Part shown: one piece after another, positions 26,023 through 54,700 of the stretch
Numbering within the stretch: the first letter of the stretch is position 1
How the letters are laid out: every line of letters starts with the position of its first letter
NCBI RefSeq assembly: GCF_000002985.6
Contig: NC_003280.10
Coordinates: 3,716,501-3,780,500 of the forward strand
DNA: 64,000 nucleotides
DNA from: Caenorhabditis elegans
Lineage: Eukaryota; Nematoda; Chromadorea; Rhabditida; Rhabditidae
Reading direction: 5' to 3'
Made by a program: the position numbers and the translations under genes
The notes under the pieces: model-generated
Database searches by the model: none
Told to the model about the DNA's origin: nothing
The model's input: the letters and a program-made list of their open reading frames with translations, nothing else

Positions 26023-27276
26023 TCATGGCTGCTTCAAAATCTCCATCATATCATGAGCCTGCATTCCCATCAACAGCGAGGATCCTCCATCGGCGATGAT
26101 CGACTGTCCAATGATGTATGAAGACATGGTACGGTCCGCCAAAAACGCGATGACTTGGGCAATTTCTATGGGCTGAGCCATATGACCGCATGGGACACAT
26201 TCCTTGTGGGACTCGAAGTATTTCATGATCTGGAAATTCAAATAGTATTAAAAAAAATATCTGGAAGGTTTTTATTGACTGTTCGTGGGATTGTTTGAGA
26301 AAGTTGAAAAACTTTGAGAACCTTTTGGAAAATTGATTTTGGAAAGCAATGGTAATTTTTGAAAACTTTTTTTGAAAACAGGAGCAATTTTCGGAAGGTT
26401 CTAGAAGTTTCCAGATTATTTCAAAAAATTTTTAACCTTTCTTAAAAGTTCTAGAAACCTTTGGAACATGTTCCAGACACTCCCAAGACCAAAATCGCTC
26501 ACCTTCTCAAGAGCACCTGGTGGGAATCCCATAGCCTCTCCGAATCCTGTGTAGACTCCTCCCGGGCTCACCGAGTTCACACGGACTCCGTGTTGAATCA
26601 GCGTGATTGCAGTGCTTCTTGTGAACTGATCAAGAGCAGCTTTGGACATTCCGTAGTACATCATATCGGGTTGAGCGTGGGGTCCTCCACCAATACTAGA
26701 AACATTGATAATTTCCCCCTTGGTCTTGATCAAGTGCTCCTTGGCCTTCTGCACCAACGTCACCACACTTCGCATATTAATTTGGAAAGTCTTATCGAAA
26801 TCTTCAATTTGCTGATCAATGCCCATCCGTCCTTGAGGATCGTTTACAGCTGCTCCGGCATTATTCACAAGGATATCAAGACGTCCGAACTTCTGAAGAG
26901 TCCCATTGATCAAATCGGTTTGTCCCTGGTCTGTAGCCAGATCTGCGGCGATCGCAAGAACGTTTTCAGCAGGTACTCCAGATTTCAGAATGGCTTGTCG
27001 GGTTTCTTCAAGTCTCTCGGCGTTTCTCCCGGTGATGGTTACCTTTGCTCCTTGTTGAGCGAAGAGAAGAGCAGCGGCACGGCCGATTCCATTGGAAGAG
27101 CCTGAAATAAAATTATCGATAGTTTGTAAACACTAAATAATTTGTGAAAAAAGTCCCCGCTCATATCTTGACTAACTTGCGATGGAACATAAAATTCTAG
27201 TTTTGAAAATTGTTCATATAAAAATAGTATTCAATTTACCTGTGACAAGGGCGACTTTTCCCGAGAATCGAGCCAT
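26023..27276 (-). CDS. Short-chain dehydrogenase/reductase (SDR), intact copy
   Basis: Three exons on the minus strand. Exon 1 encodes MARFSGKVALVTG; exon 2 (about 26506-27101) the core; exon 3 (26023-26230) the C-terminus ending MMEILKQP. Classical SDR motifs are present: the TGxxxGIG cofactor loop across the first splice, DILVNNAG, INVSSIGGG with the catalytic Ser, and the YxxxK pair in YYGMSK. Length is about 280 residues, normal for the family. Known chemistry: NAD(P)-dependent oxidation or reduction of alcohol/ketone substrates. The substrate is unknown; nematode paralogues resemble tropinone-reductase-like SDRs. No peroxisomal or ER signal is visible. Confidence 0.9.
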
Positions 27277-27684
27277 CGAACTAGAGAATAGTTTTCGTTT
27301 ATTTTTTGAACGTTGACTTTTCCATTTCCCAAATTTCTGTTTATATACCCTTCCCCATGCTGTGTCGGTTTGTGTCCACTGGAGACGCAGACAGTTGGTG
27401 GAACACAAAACGTCTAGGTTTGTGATCTATGTTGTGCCTGGCGGAGGGGGAAATCACAAACAATTGTGCTGGGGGCATTTTTTGTTCGGAGATTTAAAAT
27501 CAAATGCATCATCATATTTTTAAAGTATGTAGAGAAAAGTATCTTTTAGAGTCAGGAGTTGGGCGTCAACTAACAAAATTTTGCTCATTTCTTTTTCCAT
27601 AGAAACGTAATGCAAATTTTTGTTGATATCTGTGAAATGAGCCAAGATGTAAGCCGTCAAAGTGGATCAGGAAATTTTTTTAGG

Positions 27685-27815
27685 ATCTCCCACTTGATGT
27701 GCAGGGAGCGGGCCCAGTCCCACCTTCAGCTCGATGGAAAACGATAGAAATGGACTTTATGATGCTCTGGAGCTCATCAAGAAGTCTCTGTAGAAGTCGA
27801 AGAGGGAAAGCCTCC
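27685..27815 (+). pseudogene. Fragment of the small basic-protein gene
   Basis: The stretch encoding ISHLMCRERAQSHLQL to ALELIKKSL matches the last exon of the gene at 25640-25882 (ISYLMCRELAQSHLQP, ALELIEKSL). It has an internal deletion and early stops. No upstream exons are present. It marks the left edge of a tandem duplication that also copied the SDR. Confidence 0.8.
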
Positions 27816-27976
27816 ACCGAAGGAGAACATGTTAAGGATAGTGACTGCACCAAGCGTATTTTAAATTTCTTGTGCATTTTGAATATCAGTTTGATTTTGT
27901 TTGACTGTTTGAACTTACAGTAGTATAAACCTGTTTTATTTACAAAAGACAAAACTATAAAAAATGCTATAAATAA

Positions 27977-29410
27977 TTATGACTGCTTCAAAATCTCTAT
28001 AATGTCATGAGCCTGCATTCCCATCACCAGTGAAGATCCTCCATCAGCAATAATGGACTGCCCAATGATATAGGAAGACATGGTACGGTCCGCCAAAAAT
28101 GCGATAACTTGAGCAATTTCTACGGGTTGAGCCATGTGACCGCATGGGACACATTCCTTGTGGGACTCGTAGAATTTCATGGTCTGGAAATTCTTATGGT
28201 TTAGCCTTTAAAAAACAAGCTGTTTGTACGCTGCAAGGACCATTTTTGAAGAGGAATTTTTAGATGTTTCCACAATCACAGAAAAATATCAAACGTTCCC
28301 AAATATTTAAGAAATTTTTCGAGCTTTCTGAGCTTGCTAAAAATTCTACAGAGTTTGTATAATAGAAGTTTCTCGAAGTTTTCAATTTCTAATTGTAAGA
28401 TCTTTTATTCTACTTGCAGATCTTTCCAGAATTGTCTAGACTTCTCTAAGCACTTGACAAACCTTCCAGATTTTTATCGAGCTAAGGTTTTCAAACTTTA
28501 CAGAACTTTTTCGAAACTTCGAGAACTCTCAGAAGTTTCCTAGAAGTTTTCAGAAGTCTTGTCAAAGTTTATTGCGCGTTCAAAAATGTTTTCGAGTGTT
28601 CTAGAAGAAATTTTTTAACTTCCAGAAAAACTTAAACATTTTCTGAAAAAATTTGAACCAAAATTGCTCACCTTCTCGAATGCACCTGGTGGGAATCCCA
28701 TGGCCTCTCCAATTCCCGTGTAGACTACTCCCGGGCTCACCGAGTTCACACGGACCCCGTGTTGAATCAGTGTGATTGCAGTGCTTCTTGTGAACTGGTC
28801 AAGTGCAGCTTTGGACATTCCGTAGTACATCATATCGGGATGCGCGTGAGGTCCGGCACCAATACTGGAAACATTAATAATCTCCCCTTGGTCTTGATCA
28901 AGTGCTCCTTGGCCTTCTGCACCAGCGTTACCACACTTCGCATATTAATTTGGAAAGTCCTATCGAAGTCCTCGATTTGCTGATCAATACTGATCCGTCC
29001 TTGAGGATCGGTCACAGATGTTCCGGCATTGTTGACAAGGATATCAAGACGTCCGAACTTCTGAAGAGTCCCATTGATTAGGTCGGTTTGTCCCTGGTCT
29101 GTAGCCAAGTCTGTGGCAATAGCAAGAACGTTTTCAGCAGGTACTCCAGATTTTAGAATGGCTTGTCGTGTCTCTTCAAGTCTCTCAGCGTTTCTTCCGG
29201 TGATGGTTACTTTGGCTCCTTGTTGAGCGAAGAGGAGAGCAGCGGCACGGCCGATTCCGTTGGAGGAGCCTGGAATAAAAAAACGACAGATTTTTGAACA
29301 TAGCTAATATGAGAGAAAACAGAAACCTCTAGTGTTTTTTCAAAAAATATCCAAAAATAAGTTCTCAAATTACCTGTGACAAGAGCGACTTTTCCCGAGA
29401 AACGAGCCAT
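27977..29410 (-). pseudogene. SDR, second copy, one-base frameshift
   Basis: Three exons match the SDR at 26023-27276 nearly throughout: MARFSGKVALVTG, DILVNNAGTS, a YYGMSK block, and an exon ending IIEILKQS. At 28884-28887 a run of four C replaces the five C of the intact copy (26716-26720). That single missing base shifts the frame just after HLIKTKG, before the catalytic Ser and the YxxxK motif, so the enzyme would be lost. All splice sites remain good and no other break is seen, so the lesion is recent or is a sequencing/assembly error in a homopolymer. Confidence 0.8.
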
Positions 29411-29973: not shown

Positions 29974-30959
29974 TTAATTGTTGAGTAAAAACATTTCAAA
30001 ATTTGCAAAAACTCCATCATTGTAGTTTATCCTTGCTTTTGTTCCATCATTCCTTTGAATAACCATTTGTCCTTGATCGTCTAATGTATGTTTTGAAAAA
30101 GGTTCAATTCCACTAAAAATAATATTGGAATCAAATTTTCGATCGTCTTGAAAATATATATAAACACGTTCAAGTCTTGGATTAGACCCAATCATCCAAC
30201 TTTTCAAAAAAACGTTGATATCGTTATCTGAGAGAATGGCTTTTCGAATTTGAATATCTGAACTATTGTTGAGCAATAGATCGTTTAATCCATTGTAGCT
30301 GCCCGAGTATAATTGATCCCAATTCTGAATCAGTAAACGATAGGAGTTTGATCTGTCGAAAGGAGCTTCAACCAAATGCAATATTTCTCTTTTCAAAAAA
30401 GGTTCAAGTGCTGTAACTTGTACAGGTGAAACTTTGTAGTTAATTCCCTGAGATTGAATTATCACTTTACGATACAAAAATCCATCTAGATTTTTTTTCA
30501 AAAACTGGCCATCCAATAGATCTACGTTAGTCCAGAAATTCAGCGCATCAATACGCAATCTTTTAGAAATCACCATGAAGTGCCCAATAAAACTTTTCAC
30601 TGAATATCCCTTCAAATTCCAAATTGTGCTAACATTTCCATATGTGATTTTAATTTGAACATCGTTTTCGGGGTATGTATTCAATACATAAAATGTGAAA
30701 AAAACGCCGTTTACATAAAATCCTATCCCCAACTGGTCCAAGACATAAATTTGGAAAAACTTGATCCGTATCAGGTTGAGCGATGTGACAAGATGTTTAG
30801 TTGATTTCGAGAGAAATGAATATTTTATCCTGAAACCGAACATTTTGCTATATAAATTTTAGTTAGAGTAACCTACATATCAAACGGCAAAAAATAACGG
30901 ATCACAGTCTCCATAGATTTTGTTGGAAGACGTAGAAGGGGAAACGACGATGCAACCAT
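29974..30959 (-). CDS. F-box protein with FBA_2 domain (fbxb-type), cluster copy 1
   Basis: Exon 1 (30877-30959) encodes the start of an F-box, MVASSFPLLRLPTKSMETVI to LPFD; exon 2 (29974-29829+1000, i.e. to 30829) continues IKYSFLSKSTKHLV and the FBA_2 region with NDLLLNNSSDIQ and FLKSWMIGSNPRLE. The two exons sum to 939 bases, 312 residues. Known role: the F-box binds SKP1 in an SCF ubiquitin ligase and FBA_2 is thought to bind substrate. The four copies at 30-35.8 kb share this two-exon plan and related upstream DNA, so they arose by tandem duplication. It is open and of normal length. Confidence 0.88.
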
Positions 30960-31280
30960 TGCAGAAGACAAGAATGGATATTAATGAGAGTGAACAAAGA
31001 TCTAATGTCTCACTAGATCTGCTCCAAATTCATCGGGAAAGGTCACTGGACCTGTGGGAAGTTTGCCGATACAGTTCCAAGAAAAAGGGTGGCAACCATA
31101 TGTGCTCTAAAAATAAATGAAAAGGTCATTGGAACTGGGAAGTTTGAGGTTGCAGTTCCAGACCTAAGAGTTTTCTAGCTACATTTCTAGAAAATTGAGA
31201 AAAAAATTGTCGAATTATTTTTTTTCGGGTAGAACATTTTTTATAGAGGTTTATCATTGACTTCATTCAATTAAACGATA
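30960..31280. repeat. Upstream region shared by the four F-box genes
   Basis: The DNA upstream of copy 1 contains AATGAGAGTGAACAAAG and GGTCACTGGACCTGTGGGAAG-like blocks. Variants of these blocks lie at about 32297-32540 (copy 2), 34220-34460 (copy 3) and 35779-35905 (copy 4), so the duplication units carried their 5' flank and probably the promoter. No specific regulatory motif is claimed. Confidence 0.7.
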
Positions 31281-31283
31281 AAA

Positions 31284-32296
31284 TTATAGAGGGTAATATC
31301 CAAACACAACCATTTGAAATTGTGATCTATGGAATTTGATTGCAGCCATTGTTCCATCAGGTTTTCGAATAGCAATTTGTGCAAGGAATGGCAACTCTCG
31401 ACGACGGGCCAATTCATCATTTGATACAGGATGACACTCAATTTCTTTCAAAATTACACTGCGATCGAGATCTCGTTCGATTGAAAACCATATCTGTACA
31501 AATTCAAGTCTAGGATTTGATCCGTTTCTCCAGTTTTTCAGAAATATGTTGATATCGGTATTTGAGAGCATGCTTCGTTGGACTTGGATATCAGAACCAT
31601 TATTAAGTAGTAACTCGTTTAAATCGTTTGAGCTTCTAAGATATATTTTATCCCAATTCGGAGCCAAAATACAACGAGTAGTTGGTGCATCAAATGTAGC
31701 TCTCCTTAAATCTAACTGCTCACTTTGTAAAAATGGTGCTAGATATTTCAGATGCTCTGGTGAAACTGATCTTCCTTGGAAGTCAATTATTACTTTATGA
31801 TATGAAAATCCACTTAAATGGTCTCTCAAAAATCGATCATCTAATAAATCCAAATCGCAAAGGAAGTGTATGCGTTCAATTTGTCTTCCGTTAGTAGCTT
31901 GCATAAAATGATCAATAAAACTTCGCACGGAATAACCATTTAGATAAAACTTTTTTCTAAGGCTGTGATGCCAAATTCGAACTTGTTGAGGATTGTTTAA
32001 ACCATTGAGAGGAATACGACAGTTAAAAGATTCGCCATGTAAGGCTATAATCACCACCAAACGGTTGGAAATCTCAATGTCCAAAATTTTTGCCTGAAAT
32101 AGTCTGCCAGACGTTTTGACCAGATTTTTGGCTTTATTGGAAATGAATGAATACGGTATTCTGAAAAATAATTAATTTTGATAATTGGTTTTTGTTTGAA
32201 GAATGCAACTTACATACTACAGTGCGTGAAAGATTGAAGAACTATTTTCAAAGGTTTTGTTGGAAGACTGTGAATGGGAAAAGACGGAGCAACCAT
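31284..32296 (-). CDS. F-box protein with FBA_2 domain (fbxb-type), cluster copy 2
   Basis: Exon 1 encodes MVAPSFPIHSLPTKPLKIVL to FTHCS; after the intron the frame reads IRYSFISNKAKNLVKTSG, completing the F-box. FBA_2 follows with GYSVRSFIDHFM, LNELLLNNGSDIQV, FLKNWRNGSNPRLE and IAIRKPDGTMAAI. No stop or frame break is seen. It is closest in sequence to copy 4 (IRKPDGTIALI, ELDRRGEL) rather than to its neighbours, so copies alternate along the cluster: 1 with 3, 2 with 4. That suggests duplication of a two-gene unit. Confidence 0.88.
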
Positions 32297-32649
32297 GACA
32301 GCGGAGAAGAGAATGAATGAGAGCAAAGAAGAATTAACAGGGATGCGGTGGTAGTATGACGTTCTGCAAAAAGTGGGAAAAAGGGTCACTGTACCTATGG
32401 GATGTTTGCGGTGACTAGAAGGCAACCATAGCAGAAAAAAAAACGAATAAGAGCCAGGTGTGCTCCAAAAATATTGGAAAAGGTCATTGGAACTGTGGGA
32501 AGTTTGTGGTCTCAGTTCCAGATCTAAGAATGTCTAACTATTGTTCTAGAAAATTAAAAATTGACTGTCGAATTATTTATTTTCGGATAGAAAGTTTTTA
32601 AATAGAGTTTTAACATTAACTTCATTAAATTAAAAAAAAAGAACGAAAA

Positions 32650-34219
32650 TCATAGAAGAATTACTTCAAAGTTTGCATATATGCCTTCTTTATATTTGAT
32701 CATTGCTTTTGTTCCATTATTTTTTTGAACGGCGATTTGTCTTTGATGAGTCCATTCATCATCTGGATGAGGTTGATATTCAATTCCATCCAAAATTATA
32801 TCGAAATCAAATTCTCGAAGATGTCGAAAATCAATTTGTGCATGCTCAAGTCTAGGATTAGATCCGTTTCTCCAGTTTTTCAGAAAAATGTTCAGGTCAT
32901 TATCTGAAAGTGTGGCTTCTTGAATTTCAATGTATGAACTATTGCTAAGCAATAAATCGTTTAATCCATTGTAGCTGCCAGAGAATAATTGACCCCAATT
33001 TTGAATCAGTAAACGATAGGAGTTTGGTCTGTCGAAAGGAGCTTCAACCAAATACAATCTTTCACTTTTCAAAAAAGGCTCAAGAGCTTTGACTTGTCCG
33101 GACGAAACTTTGTAGCCTGTTCTTTCGCAGATAATCAGTACTGAGTTGTATGAAAATCCATTCAGATTATTTTTTAAAAACTGGCCGTCCAATAAATTTG
33201 CATCAGGGCAGATCATTAGCGTATCAACTTGTACTCTATCGAAAATTGCCATGAAATGTTCAATAACACTCCTTACTGAATATCCTTCCAAATTCCGAAT
33301 TGTTCTTTTGACATTCTCATATGTGATTTCAATATGTAGTGTACCGTTAGGATCAGTATGGAGTATATCAACAGTGAAAATAACGTTTTCTACGTTAAAT
33401 CGTAAATGCACGCGATTGATAACATTAATTGCTAGAAGAGTAAGCGGTAAGTTGAACGATCTGACAACTTTCTTAGTAACTTTGGAGATAAACGAGTATT
33501 TTATCCTGAAAATGCAAATGTTGATGTACAGTGCGTGCATGTTCTATATGCCACCCCCCAAAATACGGCCTATGGCCACTCCTGTGATTTTTCGTGAAAA
33601 TTTGCTAATGCCATTCGATTCTAGACCCAAAAAAACCTATAGACATTTTTTTTCGTGATGATAGCACAAAAACTAAACTTTTTAGGTCAAAAAAACGCAA
33701 AAAAGGCCGTGCAACTTCTATATGCCACCCTGCGATTTTTGATAAAAATTCTTTGATTTTCACATTTTTCATGTTTTTAAGGCTCATGTTTTTTACAAGT
33801 TTTTTGAAATTTTTTGTTTTGGGTACTATTCATCTATTTTCAGTCGATTCATGAGCCTTAAAAACATGAAAAATGTGCAAATCAAAGAATTTTTATCAAA
33901 AATCGCAGGGTGGCATATAGAAGTTGCACGGCCTTTTTTGCGTTTTTTTGACCTAAAAAGTTTAGTTTTTGTGCTATCATCACGAAAAAAAATGTCTATA
34001 GGTTTTCTTGGGTCTAGAATCGAATGGCATTAGCAAATTTTCACGAAAAATCACAGGAGTGGCCATAGGCCGTATTTTGGGGGGTGGCATATAGAACATG
34101 CACGCACTGTATTTTTTAATAAAAAAGAAAACCTACATATCAAAATACGTGAAGGATTGAAGAACTGTTTCCAAAGGTCTCGTTGGAAGACTGTGAATGG
34201 GAAAAGACGGAACAACCAT
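32650..34219 (-). CDS. F-box protein with FBA_2 domain (fbxb-type), cluster copy 3
   Basis: The F-box exon lies at about 34134-34219 (MVVPSFPIHSLPTRPLETVL to FTYFD). The rest starts at about 33507 with IKYSFISKVTKKVV and runs to the stop at 32650. FBA_2 blocks: GYSVRSVIEHFM, FDRPNSYRLLIQNWGQL, NDLLLSNSSYIEI, FLKNWRNGSNPRLE. The intron is about 630 bases rather than about 50 because a 581-base palindromic transposon sits in it. Splice sites flank the insert and appear unharmed, so the gene may still work if the hairpin does not block splicing. Confidence 0.82.
33529..34109. mobile_element. Palindromic Tc1/mariner-type MITE in an F-box gene intron
   Basis: The ends CAGTGCGTGCATGTTCTATA are perfect inverted copies flanked by TA (33527-33528 and 34110-34111). 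The two arms pair almost completely around a short loop near 33790-33850. It has no transposase; the mirrored 60-codon ORFs are by-products. The first eight bases CAGTGCGT are shared with the larger palindrome at 17950, so both may use the same transposase. Length is 581 bases. Confidence 0.9.
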
Positions 34220-34489
34220 GGCAACGGAGATGAGAATGAATGAGAGCGAAGAAGAATTAGCAGAGATGCGGTGTAGTATGACGTTCTGCAAAAAATGGGA
34301 AAAAGGGTCACTGTACCTATGGGATGTTTGCGGTCACATCTGGATAAAAGAATGGCACTCACAGCAGAAAACAATGAATAAGAGCTATTGTCTCACCAGG
34401 TGTGCTCCAAAAATATTGGGAAAGGTCAGTGGGCATGTGGGAAGTTTGTGGTTACATCTCAGTTTTAAAGGTTTGAAGCTAGTTGGTCA

Positions 34490-34565
34490 TCTCATTGCTT
34501 GCCTACTTTACATGCCTACACCATGCCTGCCTACATGTCCTTCCTTTGCCTGCCTACCTATAGTG
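34490..34565. repeat. TGCCTACCT tract
   Basis: Short run of TTGCCTACTT, ATGCCTAC and GCCTACC words in the flank upstream of F-box copy 3. Confidence 0.65.
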
Positions 34566-34788
34566 TAGCTAATAAAACGGACATCTAAAAGTGAGAAAAT
34601 AAACGGCACAGTAATGTATTATATTTTTGACCACTGCAAAAATATTTTTATTTTAATCCTTCGTCAATTAGAGCACCATCTGATTGAGGGCTCTTGTTTG
34701 AACGACTCAAATCAGACCAATAATTCATATGTAGTCTAAAAGCAAAAAAACACTTTTTCAATACAAACTTTATTTAATTAAAAATTGT

Positions 34789-35778
34789 TCAATATCCAAT
34801 AACATTCATTTCAAATTGTGCTCTACTGAATTTTATTAGAGCTATTGTTCCATCAGGTTTTCGAATAGAAATGTGTGCAAGGAATGTCAACTCTCCGCGA
34901 CGGTCTAATTCATCACTTGATACAGGTTGGTACTCAATTTCTTTCAAGATTATATTGAGATCAAAATCTCGATGAACTGGAAAACAAACATGTCCATGCT
35001 TAAGCCTAGGGTTTGATCCATTCGTCCAACTTTTCAGAAATATGTTCATATCGAGATTTGAGAGCATGGCTTGTTGGATACGAATATGTGCACTATTATT
35101 GAGTAGCAGTTGGTTTAATCTGTTGAAGCTGCCGCCATTCATTTGACCCCAATTTCTTGCCAAAACGCATTGGGTATAAAATGTATCAAATAGAGTGACT
35201 AGCAAATCTAACTGCTCGCCTTGTAAAAATGGTATCAGAAATGTCAATGGTTCAGCTGAAACTGTTATTCCGCCAGTTTCAAACACTACTTCACGATACG
35301 AAAATTCGCTCAAATAACTTTCCAAAAACTGTCCATAGAATAGACGTCCAGGGCAATGGAAACGTATAAGTTCAACATGTTTTGTGTTGGTAATTACCAT
35401 AAGATGATCTATAAAATCTTTCACCGAATATGAAGTTAAGTACCATTGAGTATGCTGAGTTTGAACTTCTAGTCTACTGCTTGAATAACCAGGTGACAGA
35501 ACGTAGTCAAAAGGCCGGCCGAGTACTTCAATATCTATTTTCAATTGGTTGGAAACATCAATTTCAGAAAGTTTGGCCTGAAATAGTAGGCCAGACGATG
35601 TGACAAGATTCTTAGCTTTCTTGGAGAGAAGTGAGTATTCTATTCTGAAAATAACCTTTTATTTTATTTACATACATACAAATAATGTAACTTACGTATT
35701 ACAGAACGCGAAAGATTGAAGAACTATTTCCATAGGTCTTGCTGGAAGACGGTGAAGGGGAAAAGACGATGCAACCAT
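34789..35778 (-). CDS. F-box protein with FBA_2 domain (fbxb-type), cluster copy 4
   Basis: Exon 1 encodes MVASSFPLHRLPARPMEIVL to FAFCN; exon 2 continues IEYSLLSKKAKNLVTSSG. FBA_2 blocks are SYSVKDFIDHLM, LNQLLLNNSAHIRI, FLKSWTNGSNPRLK and ISIRKPDGTIALI, ending at a stop at 34789. It is open and of normal length (about 305 residues). It lies at the upstream end of the tandem cluster and should have the least disturbed promoter. Role as for copy 1. Confidence 0.87.
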
Positions 35779-37420: not shown

Positions 37421-40400
37421 ATGGCTACATGTGTTTTAACTATAGCTCCCCCTGTGATTGAAGCTGTTGCTGCATCAGCCGTTGGACTTTCCGCTGCATC
37501 TGCCACAGGAGCTGGCGTTGCATCTGCCGCTGGAGTTGTTGCTGCATCTGCCGCTGGAACTGGCGCTGCATCTACCGCTGGAGTTGTTGCTGCATCTGCC
37601 GCTGGAGTTGGGGCTGGAGCTGTTGGGCTTACTCTCGTGCTCCCAGCTGTTTTGATGGGCGTGGGAGCTGGTTTGATAGTAGGTTCAATTGGTCTTTTAG
37701 TTTTGGGCCCACCTAAAAGGAGAACATCAAACAATCAAACAGCGAGGCGCACTCCATGTAGCTCCACAAATTCTCCTCGAAAATCTGAATCATGTTGGTA
37801 TGAACCCGAAAAAGACCATTTCTACGTTTCCCAAAAAGCACGTAATTCGGAATCAATTCGACTAACCGCCAATGTCATTCCCGGAGAAACATTGAAAACA
37901 TATGCTGAACTCAATGAAATACTGTGAGTTGTTGTTGTGACTTCGTTCCAAAAATGATTACTATTTGTGAATCCCCAGTGTGGTTCTGAAACAATTGCAT
38001 ATACATTTCACCGATCGACACAAAATGATTAAACGATGATTTTCATTTTTAAGATTTAATCAACTTAATGAAAATCGGACTGGATCCCCTGTGTTTCGAA
38101 AATCTGACTCTTATTGGTATGAACCTGAAAAAGACCATTTCTACGTTTCCAAAGAAGCACGTAATTCGGAATCAATTCGACTAACCGCCAATGTCATTCC
38201 CGGAGAAACATTGAAAACATATGCTGAACTCAATGAAATACTGTGAGTTGTTGTTGTGACTTCGTTCCAAAAATGATTACTATTTGTGAATCCCCAGTGT
38301 GGTTCTGAAACAATTGCATATACATTTCACCGATCGACACAAAATGATTAAACGATGATTTTCATTTTTAAGATTTAATCAACTTAATGAAAATCGGACT
38401 GGATCCCCTGTGTTTCGAAAATCTGACTCTTATTGGTATGAACCTGAAAAAGACCATTTCTACGTTTCCAAAGAAGCACGTAATTCGGAATCAATTCGAC
38501 TAACCGCCAATGTCATTCCCGGAGAAACATTGAAAACATATGCTGAACTCAATGAAATACTGTGAGTTGTTGTTGTGACTTCGTTCCAAAAATGATTACT
38601 ATTTGTGAATCCCCAGTGTGGTTCTGAAACAATTGCATATACATTTCACCGATCGACACAAAATGATTAAACGATGATTTTCATTTTTAAGATTTAATCA
38701 ACTTAATGAAAATCGGACTGGATCCCCTGTGCTTCGAATATTTGACTCTTATTGGTATGAACCTGAAAAAGACCATTTCTACGTTTCCAAAAAAGCACGT
38801 ACTTCGGAATCAATTCGACTAACCGCCAATGTCATTCCCGGAGAAACATTGAAAACATATGCTGAACTCAATGAAATACTGTGAGTTGTTGTTGTGACTT
38901 CGTTCCAAAAATGATTACTATTTGTGAATCCCCAGTGTGGTTCTGAAACAATTGCATATACATTTCACCGATTGACATAAAATGATTAAACGATGTTTTT
39001 CATTTTTCAGATTTAATAAACTCAATGAAAATCGGACTGGATCCCCTGTGCTTCGAATATCTGACTCTTATTGGTATGAACCTGAAAAAGACCATTTCTA
39101 CGTTTCCAAGAAAGCACGTACTTCGGAATCAATTCGACTAACCGCCAATGTCGTTTCCGGAGAAAAATGGAAAACATTTGCTGAACTCAAGGAATTACTA
39201 GGAAAGTAAGTTGTTGGGGTATCATTCCAAAAAGTGTCACTGTTTGCGATTATGAAATATTTATATTTGATTGAAATATAATAATTGACGTAAAATGATA
39301 AAACGTTGTCTTTCATTCACAAAGTCTTAACTGCTGCAATTTCCCAGAAAAATAATGTTTCGAATATGTTTTCAGAGTAAAACAGTGTTTTCTTCAAATT
39401 AATCACTTTCCTCCTTTTTTCTCTATACCTATGAAATTACTGTTTTCAACAGGAACCAAGACATGAATTTGGTTTTAATGAATTCTGAAATTGTGTTTTG
39501 AGTTTGAAATTTGAAAAAGCGGTTAAAAATAATTCAGGCAAATTACTTTTTTTTTACTAATTCCAATACTTAAGAACGGATTTGCAATAAATACAGAAAA
39601 GGAAAATAAGTGCCTAAAACTACTTTAAAAGTGTATCACGATGTTTTGATGTACGAATTTAAACCTAAAATCTAAACCTCAAAGTTGATTGCACTACGTG
39701 TCTTAATAAAATCTTAAAAAAACATTTTTATAGCCAACTTCGTGACGCTAACCAATCGAAACAAGATTCCTATCCAAGAGGAGAATGTAACACCCCAGAG
39801 AAAAGAAATGAAAAAAACAATAATTTCGAGAGACAACAACCACGAAAATCGTTGCAAGATCAGCATTGGAATGTTCCTTTTGAATTCGAGAGAGACCCGA
39901 ACAACCAAACAGGCCGAGAAAGAGAAGATTCATCCACTGACCAGTTTTGGATGAGCGTTACAACTCCAAAAAACTTTACATACACCGTAAGCTTCTTTCA
40001 AAAATATAGTCACCGGAGGGTTCAAGAGCTTATTTAAGAATTGACAGGTAAGCGCGCTAGCCCAACTTGAGCAAAGGCTTGCAGCACTAATAGAGAATAT
40101 ACGGTAACTAACCGACAATGTTTGGACGTCAGTTTATTTGCAAAAATCAAAAATGTTTCGTACATACATATAAACCATTGTTTTATGAAAAAAAGTTTTC
40201 AGAAATTACAAGATTGTTTTGAGCATTATCCATGAAAATTCATTATGTTTGAATCTAGGGATATAACGAACGTAAAGTTTGCAGATGGTAGGTCTTGCCA
40301 ACAATGGACGCGAAGGTTTCCTGCATTCGTTAATCAGACACGGAAGAGAGTTCACGGGCTTTCCATCGAATCGTTTTCACAGAGATATTCTGGATGTAGT

Positions 40401-40847
40401 TCCACCATCCATACGCCAATTGATAAAAGAAATTCGGAATTACAGCAACAGAGACAGGAGTAATGAGATAGAAAAAGAGTTACTTTCGGATAGGTCATAT
40501 CCTGGTAAACACATGTAGTTAGACCGAACTAATTTTTAATATTTCCAGCTACACTGCAACTCCAGAAAAAGTTTCGAGATTACATCCAGAAAATTGTAAA
40601 CGATGAGAGCAACTTTTTGTACAGACGCCCTAATACAAACGGACAAACTCAAGTATTTTGGAAAATAAACAACGAGAAGGTTCTTGTGATTTGTTTATCA
40701 GAAGACCCATATTTTCCTGAAGCTGGCAGGGATTCTGTTTCACCGGAAAGAAATATCAGAAAAATTATTACTATGTTTGTGAAAAGCAGGATAAGTGTGG
40801 ACTCGATGATAAGAGCAGACTCTCCGTTCAATACCCATGGTCCCTAA
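37421..40847 (+). CDS. Modular protein with five copies of a 63-residue unit; unrecognised
   Basis: Exons: 37421-37923, 38054-38242, 38373-38561, 38692-38880, 39011-39205, 39734-39986, 40285-40504, 40549-40847. All phases fit; total 2037 bases, 678 residues. The N-terminus has an Ala/Gly/Val-rich eight-residue repeat and a long hydrophobic stretch (AVGLTLVLPAVLMGVGAGLI), perhaps membrane-associated. The first unit ends exon 1; four more are carried on exons 2-5, each with WYEPEKDHFYVS and ESIRLTANV. The C-terminus is charged (QQPRKSLQDQHW, REFTGFPSNRFH) and has no domain I know. Exons 2-4 have TTTTTAAG acceptors, exon 5 has TTTTTCAG. Exon 1 follows a possible trans-splice acceptor (atttcag). 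Confidence 0.7.
37493..37612. repeat. 24-base coding repeat, five copies
   Basis: The unit GTTGCTGCATCTGCCGCTGG recurs with a period of 24 bases and encodes the eight-residue motif AASAAGVV with variants. It lies in exon 1 of the modular gene. Confidence 0.85.
37793..39209. repeat. 319-base tandem array of exon plus intron
   Basis: The word TTGGTATGAACC falls at intervals of exactly 319 bases (about 37795, 38114, 38433, 38752, 39071). Each full period contains a 189-base exon and a 130-base intron. The units starting 38054 and 38373 look identical by eye. The last units carry a few substitutions. This is a young exon amplification. Confidence 0.93.
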
Positions 40848-45266: not shown

Positions 45267-46499
45267 GGTTGAACCGGAAGTCTTTGTGACTTTTTCAATC
45301 GTTTATTTCTCGAAGCAAAAGAAACTTCAGGATAAATTTTATTTGCTATCATTATCAACAATATACTACCAACGTGTGCGCAACTTATGAATGCCCTGCT
45401 TATAGAACCCTTCCAGGCGCAAGTCGAAATATTGCTTGAGTGCCATTTCGACACTTCCATGGGTATTGAAGGTTCTTTCCCATAGGTCACGAGTTATATC
45501 TGAAAAAGACCAGTATTCAGATGGAGCAGTGTCTTGAGAATACGGAGGGTAAAGGAGAACCATCCATCCACGCCTGACCAGTTCCTGCAATACTTGTTTC
45601 AAACCGTAGGGCCAAGAGTTGTTTTGTTGAAAATGGATTTGCTTGTCCATCAGGGGTGAACGATTGAAGACTTTCTTCAGGTTCCGTGGTTAGATAATGT
45701 AGAGGCCCCCAGTAATTATTTTGCTATCAGGTAGCAATTCCCAGTAGATGGGGCCGTACACTCCTCACCACATTGAGGTCATGACTTTTTTAGGGGGATA
45801 GTCGGGTTTAGCGGCATCCTGTGGGGTCTCTCCTTCTTCAATCCATTGGGCATGCCTGTGGTTGTTATTGTAGAGGACCCACTTCTCGTCTCCAGTGAAA
45901 AGTGGGTCCAACCATCAATCGCCCCCGTGGAGAATGAGGAGGGAAAGGGAACCATCCATTCAAAACTCAAGGTTGGCTTGTGTCAAGGTGTGAGGTATGA
46001 ATCCACCCCTAATTGTCTTTATTCCGGGAGCTACCAAGCCCTGTACGATGTTGGTTTGATAAGACCCAAGTGCGGTTGACAGCTCACGGGTTGTTTGGAA
46101 AGGATTCGTTTACACGGCTTTCTTCAACGCATCCAAATCCAATTTATGGGGTCTCTTGGTCCTCAAGAGAAAAGTCGTCCTTGTCGAAGCGGTGGAACCA
46201 ATTGTGTATGATATTATAGTGATGGACATGTGTATGATGAACATTCTCAAGGAGACTCTCGAAATCCTTCATCGTGGTATGAAATAGGAAGAAGTACATC
46301 AAACTATGTCGGATGTGGATGTCACTATTTACATACATCGTCGGCTAACTAAACTCAGGTCAGAGGGAAGGGAATGGGGTGTTTTTTAAAATTAAGTTCC
46401 TTTACTCGTTGTTATACCCTAGCAACAAGGGAACACCAAAGTGCAACTGCGGCTAGCGGTGGATAAGCAAACCCAGTCACAAAGACTTCCGGTTCAACC
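45267..46499 (-). mobile_element. Mariner-like transposon relic
   Basis: Perfect 24-base or longer inverted ends (GGTTGAACCGGAAGTCTTTG on the left, its complement on the right) are flanked by TA. Inside, the minus strand encodes pieces of a mariner transposase: FHRFDKDDFSLEDQETP near 46150, and YPPYSQDTAPSEYW near 45530, the conserved HPPYSPDLAPSDY-type block that contains the third catalytic Asp. Several frame changes separate them, so the element is dead. Length is 1233 bases. It lies immediately upstream of the helical-protein gene at 43801-45199. Confidence 0.88.
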
Positions 46500-51700: not shown

Positions 51701-54700
51701 TAAATTTAAGAATCAGTGAGTTGGCTTACCAACTGGATGGGCGAAAAATTGGTGACCGGATTGAGATCCTTGAACTTCAGCTGACGATGGCATTTCAGGA
51801 ACTGCTTGGAAAGAGAAATTTTGCTTTTCGACTTGATTTTCTGGTTGTCCAGCACAAGTATTTAATAACGCTTCATGGAAAGTTGTCGGGAATATTGAAT
51901 GGACTGGAAAATTCAATGGAATTCCTTGTTGCCTCAAAAGTGTTTCAGTGGAAAGTTTAACGGGAATTGGTTTGGCTGAAAAATTTTGTAACCGCCTGAA
52001 AATAATTCGATGGTTTACCGATTGGGATATCTGAAACTGTTGATAGTTGTTGAGCAGCTCGACCTTCAACTACCGGCGCCATTTTCAGTGACTCAGACAA
52101 TGGAGGTTCGGCTGAAAATGTGTATTTTTAAATTAAAAAAAAAACGTTACTAATTTAGAGAGCGAATGTTCCAAAAAAAAAACTACACTAGAAAATTTCC
52201 ATTATAACCTGAGTCTGCAGAATATTGTTGTTCAATTTCAGCTTGACCATTTTGAACGTCTGGTGAAGGTGACGGTTCCGGTGACTCCACTTGGTGATTG
52301 TCATGAACTTCCGCAGATATCTCATGTGGTGTTTCGTCATTTGCAAGAAACGCTTTAACGGGAGCAACTGATTGAGTTGAGAGGTGGTGAGCTTCTTCAT
52401 CTATATCATATTGATTTTCTGGTGACTGAGAGGTTTCCTGCTGCTCTATTGGCGCATCATGGCTAGCTGGAGAAGATGAGAATTGGCGATCTTCTTGAAC
52501 TTCCACAACAATCTCACAAAGTGCTTCGTCACTTGCAAGAGATGCTTCATCTGAATTTACTTTAATAATTTTAATTATAAATTTTTCAAATATTTGTTAT
52601 TAATCTTCTAACTACAGTGCTCCACATAATGATACGGCCACCCCCAAATTTTGGTATAACTCAAAACTGGGTTGAGATAGCAAAACATAGTTTCTTGTGA
52701 AAATGTTCGCTATACTAACTTGCTTTCAGATAAATATTGGAAATATACCTGAACCGTTCGTAAAAAAGATAAACCATTTTTTCATGAAAAACCATATTAA
52801 AAAATCCACAAAATGATACGGCCACCCTTGGTTTTTGTTTTCTTTTTTCGTTTTCTTTGCAATTTTTTTTGCTAAACGTTAAGTTTCATGTTCGTTTGTG
52901 TTTTTACAGCTATGTGGTCGTGGAATAACTTCAACTGACTACGAAAAAGGACAAATTGTGCCAAATTATCTCAAGGCTTCTCGAATCGTCAGATTTTTCG
53001 TGATTTGAAACTTTCGAGAGATATGATCACTCGATATGCTTCCAATCCTGCCGCTTATTGCACAAAAAAGTCTTCTGGTCGCACACCTTTTCTTTCTGTC
53101 AGACCCAAGCGAAAAATCGTTCGTCGTACATCCAATTGAACAGTGACTTGCTCGAAAAGTAGGAGCGAGATGAACCTGGCAGTGTCTGTTGAGGCCGTAC
53201 GACATGTTCTTTTGAAGTCTCAGTTTAACAAAAGACGAAAATTAAGAAAGGCTCCATTCATTACCAAAAAAACCGCCAAAACCGTATTCAGTTTGCTAAA
53301 ATCAGTCAGGGAACTAACTGAAGACAAGAGAGGATTACGGTATAATCATTCAAGCCCAGTTTTTGGTTTCAGTTCATCTTCAGTGACGAGAAAAAGTTCA
53401 ACTGTGATGAACCAGATCACTACCGTGATTAGTGGCACGATTTGAGAAAAGAAAAGATGAACTGAAACCAAAAACTGGGCTTGAATGATTATACCGTAAT
53501 CCTCTCTTGTCTTCAGTTAGTTCCCTGACTGATTTTAGCAAACTGAATACGGTTTTGGCGGTTTTTTTGGTAATGAATGGAGCCTTTCTTAATTTTCGTC
53601 TTTTGTTAAACTGAGACTTCAAAAGAACATGTCGTACGGCCTCAACAGACACTGCCAGGTTCATCTCGCTCCTACTTTTCGAGCAAGTCACTGTTCAATT
53701 GGATGTACGACGAACGATTTTTCGCTTGGGTCTGACAGAAAGAAAAGATGTGCGACCAGAAGACTTTTTTGTGCAATAAGCGGCAGGATTGGAAGCATAT
53801 CGAGTGATCATATCTCTCGAAAGTTTCAAATCACGAAAAATCTGACGATTCGAGAAGCCTTGAGATAATTTGGCACAATTTGTCCTTTTTCGTAGTCAGT
53901 TGAAGTTATTCCACGACCACATAGCTGTAAAAACACAAACGAACATGAAACTTAACGTTTAGCAAAAAAAATTGCAAAGAAAACGAAAAAAGAAAACAAA
54001 AACCAAGGGTGGCCGTATCATTTTGTGGATTTTTTAATATGGTTTTTCATGAAAAAATGGTTTATCTTTTTTACGAACGGTTCAGGTATATTTCCAATAT
54101 TTATCTGAAAGCAAGTTAGTATAGCGAACATTTTCACAAGAAACTATGTTTTGCTATCTCAACCCAGTTTTGAGTTATACCAAAATTTGGGGGTGGCCGT
54201 ATCATTATGTGGAGCACTGTATAAGCCATAAACGAATACATCAAAATAAACAATGTTGCTTACAATTAGGAGAAACTGATGGTGCAGCATCTTCAGCTTG
54301 AGCTTCTCGAACTTTTGTCGACTGTGACAGTTCCTTTGGCTTAATTAAGCTGTCACAGAAATCATGACCATCTTCATTTACATAATCTCGAACCTCTGGT
54401 GACTGAGAGGTTTCCAGCGGATCCATGAGTGAATTATAGCCGTCTGGGGAGAAAGATATTTCTTCTGAAAATGAGCGTTTTGATGGGAAAAGTTACAACA
54501 TTTCACAGTTGGGAGCTGGTTGTTTGGGCTTACCAAAGTTAGAAACCCAGTGGATGGAGAATTGGTGATCATCTGGAGCTTCCATAGACATCTCATCAGT
54601 TGCTTTATTATCAGACGTTTCGGCTAAATATATTTTCTTTCTTTACGGGTATTCAACATTTTACCACCTGAAATGAAAGTATGACTTACCAAAGGTGGCA

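Follow-up and report, generated by a model that had tools for sequence, protein, structure and literature searches.

A gene of Caenorhabditis elegans in which one coding module recurs in five successive exons raises two questions, namely how such an array arises and how many of its modules a transcript retains. The gene lies in the window (the whole stretch of DNA analyzed, 64,000 nucleotides), and we assign a probability of roughly 0.6 to the reading that a single module was duplicated across an exon-intron border, that unequal exchange followed, and that all five copies are included by default. Our confidence is held down because the modules of the paralogs rest on weak matches, one of which was found by eye.

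Structure of the gene and of the array

The gene (37421-40847, plus strand, as are all its parts) has a complete open frame of 678 amino acids plus the stop in eight exons. Exon 1 (37421-37923) has an open frame, ends at the donor CT/GTGAGT, and encodes an Ala/Gly-rich hydrophobic N terminus with module copy 1 at its end (37777-37923), the place that the module also takes in the paralogs; homology with the later units begins at TCGAAAATCTGA. There follow intron 1 (37924-38053; 130 bases, ending in TTTTTAAG), exon 2 with module copy 2 (38054-38242; 189 bases), intron 2 (38243-38372; identical to intron 1), exon 3 with copy 3 (38373-38561; identical to exon 2), intron 3 (38562-38691; identical to introns 1 and 2), exon 4 with copy 4 (38692-38880; 189 bases, differing from exons 2 and 3 at five positions), intron 4 (38881-39010; 130 bases, ending in TTTTTCAG), and exon 5 with copy 5 (39011-39205). 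Beyond intron 5 (39206-39733), the first part of which is a diverged relative of the intron of the unit, exon 6 (39734-39986) encodes a polar linker common to paralogs B and C (tblastn E 4e-13 and 8e-13), exon 7 (40285-40504) begins a conserved C-terminal domain, and exon 8 (40549-40847) holds the remainder of that domain and the stop. Exons 6-8 of the model were positioned from splice signals and frame. A second tandem repeat lies inside exon 1 (37462-37616), where a 24-base unit, present in about six copies, encodes an alanine-rich repeat.

The five-copy tandem exon array is real. Tandem Repeats Finder placed it at 37777-39199 with a period of 319, 4.5 copies, 97% matches, 0% indels, and a score of 2650; the next best of the 22 rows scored 205 and 201, both being the short alanine repeat in exon 1. 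In a single repeat scan of 264 kb, comprising 20 stretches of 10 kb and the window, with a longest period of 500, the array scored highest of the three repeats with a period of at least 100. The initial annotation had described a 319-base unit made of a 189-base exon and a 130-base intron, with five module copies in all, and direct comparison reveals this same arrangement. The exon length applies to exons 2-4; exon 5 has 195 bases and the donor GTAAGT instead of GTGAGT. The module exon is symmetric, as proposed, with phase 2 on either side and a length that is a multiple of three (195 also), and the claim that any copy number keeps the frame agrees with our finding that 16 of 16 include/skip combinations of exons 2-5 are open, so that anything from one to five modules can be had in frame. 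Splicing is the only way to join the modules, because translation into intron 1 runs into a stop at codon 169, directly past exon 1, and the period of 319 is not divisible by three.

Two of the units had been called identical. This is true of exons 2 and 3, and the identity reaches further, as introns 1, 2, and 3 are all identical and 577 bases form a single perfect run at lag 319. Compared with exon 2, exon 5 differs at 14 of 189 positions and exon 4 at 5; of the 130 positions of intron 4, four depart from introns 1-3, one being A/C at -3. Between copies 1 and 2 there are 6 differences in the 59 sites of register 43-101, where the homology sets in, and no later ones, and between copies 4 and 5 there are 7 in the 47 sites at the 3' end (register 143-189). 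Unequal exchange within an array leaves a uniform interior and diverged edges. The interior of the present array is more alike than its edges, as a uniform array under unequal exchange requires.

Paralogs with a single module

When the C-terminal part was used as the query against the genome (100,286,401 bases in 7 contigs), three further genes were found on the minus strand of the same contig (15,279,421 bases) at 2706212-2710253 (10 candidates scored; two weak matches at E 0.1 were disregarded). Judged by these matches, the array gene belongs to a small gene family, of which four members are seen in the C. elegans genome. The C-terminal domain is 48% identical to that of paralog C and 50% identical to that of paralog A. 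In each of the three paralogs, exon 1 closes at its 3' end with a single module-like stretch, and the intron after it is in phase 2. With the module as the query, tblastn located two of these stretches (E 3e-4 and 7e-4; 16-kb target), and that of paralog A was recognized by reading and alignment; they share 19-28% identity with copy 5, and two alignment columns are invariant. These matches support one module in the paralogs. Paralog B was joined across exons 1-2 only, and of paralog A only exon 1 was used, its exons 2-3 as placed containing stops and giving no in-frame join. The later exons of paralog A may be misjudged or damaged.

A search with a single module had also been proposed as a way to other proteins that carry it. 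The genome search with one module (E <= 1, 6 candidates scored) returned the five array copies and no other place; it missed the paralog modules, and other diverged modules, inside the family or outside it, could escape it too. The array gene has more module copies than its inferred ancestor, given three paralogs in the same genome with one module-like stretch each, and the ancestral state was most likely one module.

Origin of the array

We propose that the ancestral gene would have had a single module ending exon 1, between a membrane-like N terminus and the conserved C-terminal domain. A tandem duplication would have linked a site within the first intron to one in exon 1 and, by crossing the border of exon 1 and intron 1, would have repeated the module, the donor, and the start of the intron. 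Within the copied intron, sequence would have become an acceptor, and the 42 bases from there up to the old exon homology would have turned coding (the linker FNQLNENRTGSPV). Unequal exchange would then have added units and kept the inner ones uniform, and such addition would have been free because the length of the new exon is divisible by three and both its borders are in phase 2.

Local alignment of intron 5 with the intron of the unit scored 54 against a shuffle maximum of 33 (n = 200), and alignment of 39206-39385 with the same intron scored 95.2 against a shuffle maximum of 69.8, a score reached by 0 of 2000 shuffles. Intron 5 is far more diverged from the intron of the unit than the array introns are, and the alignment has gaps. 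The first part of intron 5 is probably the original first intron. Intron 4 looks older because it agrees with intron 5 at three of the three other differing intron positions; but intron 5 has A at the position aligned with acceptor -3, so that the acceptor may have changed either from C to A or from A to C (both read by eye). As to the claim that the amplification is recent, recent homogenization is supported, and the pattern suggests that the first duplication took place before the units reached the uniformity they now show.

A short match marks the putative junction. TCGAAAATCTGA stands at 37777, TTTCGAATAT stands in intron 5 at 39358-39367 as the proposed partner of TCGAAAAT of exon 1 (from 37777), CTTCGAATAT or TTTCGAAAAT stands in the units, and TCGAA(A/T)AT is present at the junctions. 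When the stretch of intron 5 from 39318 was aligned with the 42 exonized bases, the score was reached by 444 of 2000 shuffles and is by itself not significant; an intronic origin of these bases is argued from their position and from 12 bases that match with one exception. These matches suggest that the first duplication joined intron to exon at a short match and that 42 intronic bases may thereby have become coding.

Features of the predicted protein

The most hydrophobic 19 residues of the predicted protein start at residue 77 (mean Kyte-Doolittle value 2.4), and exon 1 likely encodes one membrane segment. From position, we would guess that the modules act as a spacer, each adding 63 residues between the membrane segment and the C-terminal domain. 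A Pfam scan of the array protein and paralog C gave nothing above the curated cut-off. The best match below it, Aa-Ago_N (24.6 bits versus a cut-off of 26; E 1.9e-5), and NCH2 (19.6 bits versus 27; E 0.001) fall within the repeats and were taken as chance inflated by repetition. Paralog C matched 0 NCBIfam families, and a C-terminal profile of three sequences gave 8 rows against the PDB, the best at E 0.22. The predicted structure of the module, made from five near-identical rows, had a mean pLDDT of 52.6 and was too poor for a fold search.

Acceptors of the inner exons

The acceptors of introns 1-4 read AAG, AAG, AAG, and then CAG, exactly as first described, and the inner ones do depart from the nematode consensus TTTTCAG, by A at -3. 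Because they sit in three identical introns, the three AAG acceptors count as one copied sequence. The AAG acceptors retain the U tract, have a purine at +1, and are followed by the next AG downstream about 80 bases into the exon (by eye).

To obtain a background for A at -3, introns were picked annotation-free with hand-set splice weights based on the consensus, and the resulting frequencies are rough. Picks made with a coding model that had been trained on long open frames were noisy; in its first run, A stood at -3 in 1 of 15 picks (namely TTTTTAAG) and in 1 of 4 of the TTTT subset, and in its second run, at four settings, in 10/95, 7/61, 4/34, and 4/25 picks, with G at -3 in 16/95 and A in 2/24 of the TTTT subset at the loosest setting. 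A codon-usage table gave cleaner picks. Its first run had A at -3 in 2/42 at the loosest setting and in 0/28, 0/21, 0/12, 0/10, and 0/6 elsewhere; its second run, which covered introns of 42-75 bases in 24 stretches, had A in 4/89 (loosest), 3/52, 6/74, 2/51, 1/30, and 4/58 at six settings and in none of the corresponding TTTT subsets (n = 30, 21, 24, 19, 13, and 21). The reversed-sequence control of this second run yielded 7, 3, 4, 2, 0, and 1 picks, mostly with A. By this rough estimate, AAG acceptors look uncommon.

The available portions of four papers bear on what such acceptors would do. One gives the consensus as TTTTCAG, with about 26% of sites being exact matches (PMC12709185). According to the part of another, efficient splicing needs -3C kept beside AG/R, and this requirement favors a genuine weakness of the AAG acceptors (PMC11802449). 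In a C. elegans reporter, as described in the portion of the third, TTTTCAG was used exclusively and weak 3' splice sites were position-sensitive, so that skipping would be possible in the array (PMC2762039). Loss of METT-10, according to the fourth, makes strong sites downstream used at the expense of weak ones upstream, and donor +4A is critical (PMC11347140). The array donors GTGAGT carry +4A and the weak acceptors lie upstream of the strong one; by analogy, METT-10 loss would be predicted to shift splicing of the array downstream.

Inclusion of the modules and rival readings

In our judgement, it is likeliest that the 130-base introns are spliced out one after another and that the transcript retains every copy by default, which would give five modules with some skipping at AAG sites. 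Default inclusion is favored because every donor has its own acceptor 130 bases on and exon 5 is reached only past three acceptors.

The initial annotation had instead suggested that splicing could set the number of modules, with the weak AAG acceptors allowing exon 1 to be spliced to exon 5 or to inner exons and so producing one to five modules in varying mixture. We consider this unlikely, although several observations speak for it: every one of the 16 exon combinations is in frame, AAG looks uncommon (0/30 among the TTTT-tract picks), and YAG stands at every other acceptor that was modeled, four in paralogs B and C and three before exons 6-8. The position sensitivity of weak 3' sites (PMC2762039) and the shift of sites on METT-10 loss, with the shared +4A (PMC11347140), as far as the available parts of these sources go, point the same way. 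However, the AAG sites are one sequence copied, their U tract and +1 purine are intact, and each donor is paired with its own acceptor 130 bases off.

Comparison of the module copies bears on two further readings. The module copies vary at 20 coding sites, of which 16 change an amino acid and 4 are silent, and random change gives 76% (p = 1.0), so that in these 20 sites neither constraint nor diversification is detectable. The inner units could be passengers that are mostly skipped, with exon 1 joining exon 5 and exons 2-4 lying inside an effective long intron, and both this absence of detectable constraint and the presence of a consensus-like acceptor at exon 5 only would fit; we nevertheless regard it as quite improbable. 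The inner exons are all open and their donors are intact, which argues for use, but weakly because 20 random changes would create no stop with a probability of 0.32. Just as improbable, in our view, is that the gene is decaying or unexpressed and the array a neutral accident without a role. The lack of constraint among the copies would agree with this as well, but the frame is open over 678 residues and eight exons, and the gene itself is argued not to be dead because its C-terminal domain keeps 48-50% identity to two paralogs.

Inclusion of all five copies by default remains our preferred reading. A bolder conception, to which we give still less credence than to the rivals above, is that of a length-adjustable tether, in which the identical weak acceptors would create a graded mixture of one to five modules between the membrane anchor and the C-terminal domain, responsive to acceptor recognition (e.g. 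METT-10, U6 m6A), with the number of units varying among wild strains. Least probable of all is that the copy number is an assembly error in which identical units were collapsed or expanded, because, although the perfect 577-base run is hard to assemble from short sequences, copies 1, 4, and 5 are distinct from copies 2/3 and from each other, so that at least four units are distinguishable and only the count of the identical units 2 and 3 is exposed.

Comparison with known systems

As in tandem exon duplication, the array consists of neighboring homologous exons within a single gene, its phase is symmetric, and exon and intron were duplicated together. It differs in that its founding duplication seems to cross the exon-intron border and in the near identity of its copies, all of which may be included. 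Papers on tandem exon duplication, in their available parts, treat mainly mutually exclusive use (PMC9741552, PMC9013439), and one of them surveyed C. elegans WBcel235 for duplicated exons (PMC9013439). For mutually exclusive exons, diverged copies are expected, whereas exons 2 and 3 of the array are identical and exon 4 is five bases off; further, use of one copy is not enforced by the frame, given that all 16 combinations are open.

Coding repeat arrays are kept uniform by unequal exchange (concerted evolution). The array resembles them in its uniform interior, its diverged edges, and its long identity at the repeat period, but its unit contains an intron and its period of 319 is not a multiple of three. 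Caenorhabditis F-box paralogs, in the available part of the report on them, show exon gain, exonization, and boundary change (PMC8665587). The likeness is that paralogs there differ by new exons and former intron is used as coding; in contrast to what that part of the report describes, the new exon of the array was multiplied in tandem within one gene. The 319-base array was unmentioned among the literature matches listed, which were searched without a gene name and from which absence from the literature is not implied. The array would be a compact example of how a duplication over an exon-intron border makes a new exon that multiplies with the frame intact, and relatives with a single module can be compared with it. 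Should the number of modules prove to vary by splicing or between strains, the gene would offer a natural test of acceptor strength and distance in exon choice in C. elegans.

Other features in the window

A perfect inverted repeat at 52613-54221 has 768-base arms at 100% identity with 73 bases between them, and one arm with the spacer has 65 genome-wide matches, its own two included. By length and shape, it resembles the C. elegans fold-back element Tc6. An open frame on the minus strand at 45366-45689, for which Pfam gave nothing at E <= 0.01, resembles by eye the end of a mariner-type transposase. At 2259-2463, degenerate six-base repeats AGGCTT and TTAGGC occur in a chromosome-internal position, TTAGGC being the nematode telomere unit. 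On the minus strand at 26416-29303 lie adjoining open frames of short-chain dehydrogenase type that closely resemble each other, the first of which (the one scanned) matches adh_short at 1.8e-43. Also on the minus strand, at 29974-35658, four open frames stand in tandem, each 289-297 residues long when counted from stop to stop, and by look form one family.
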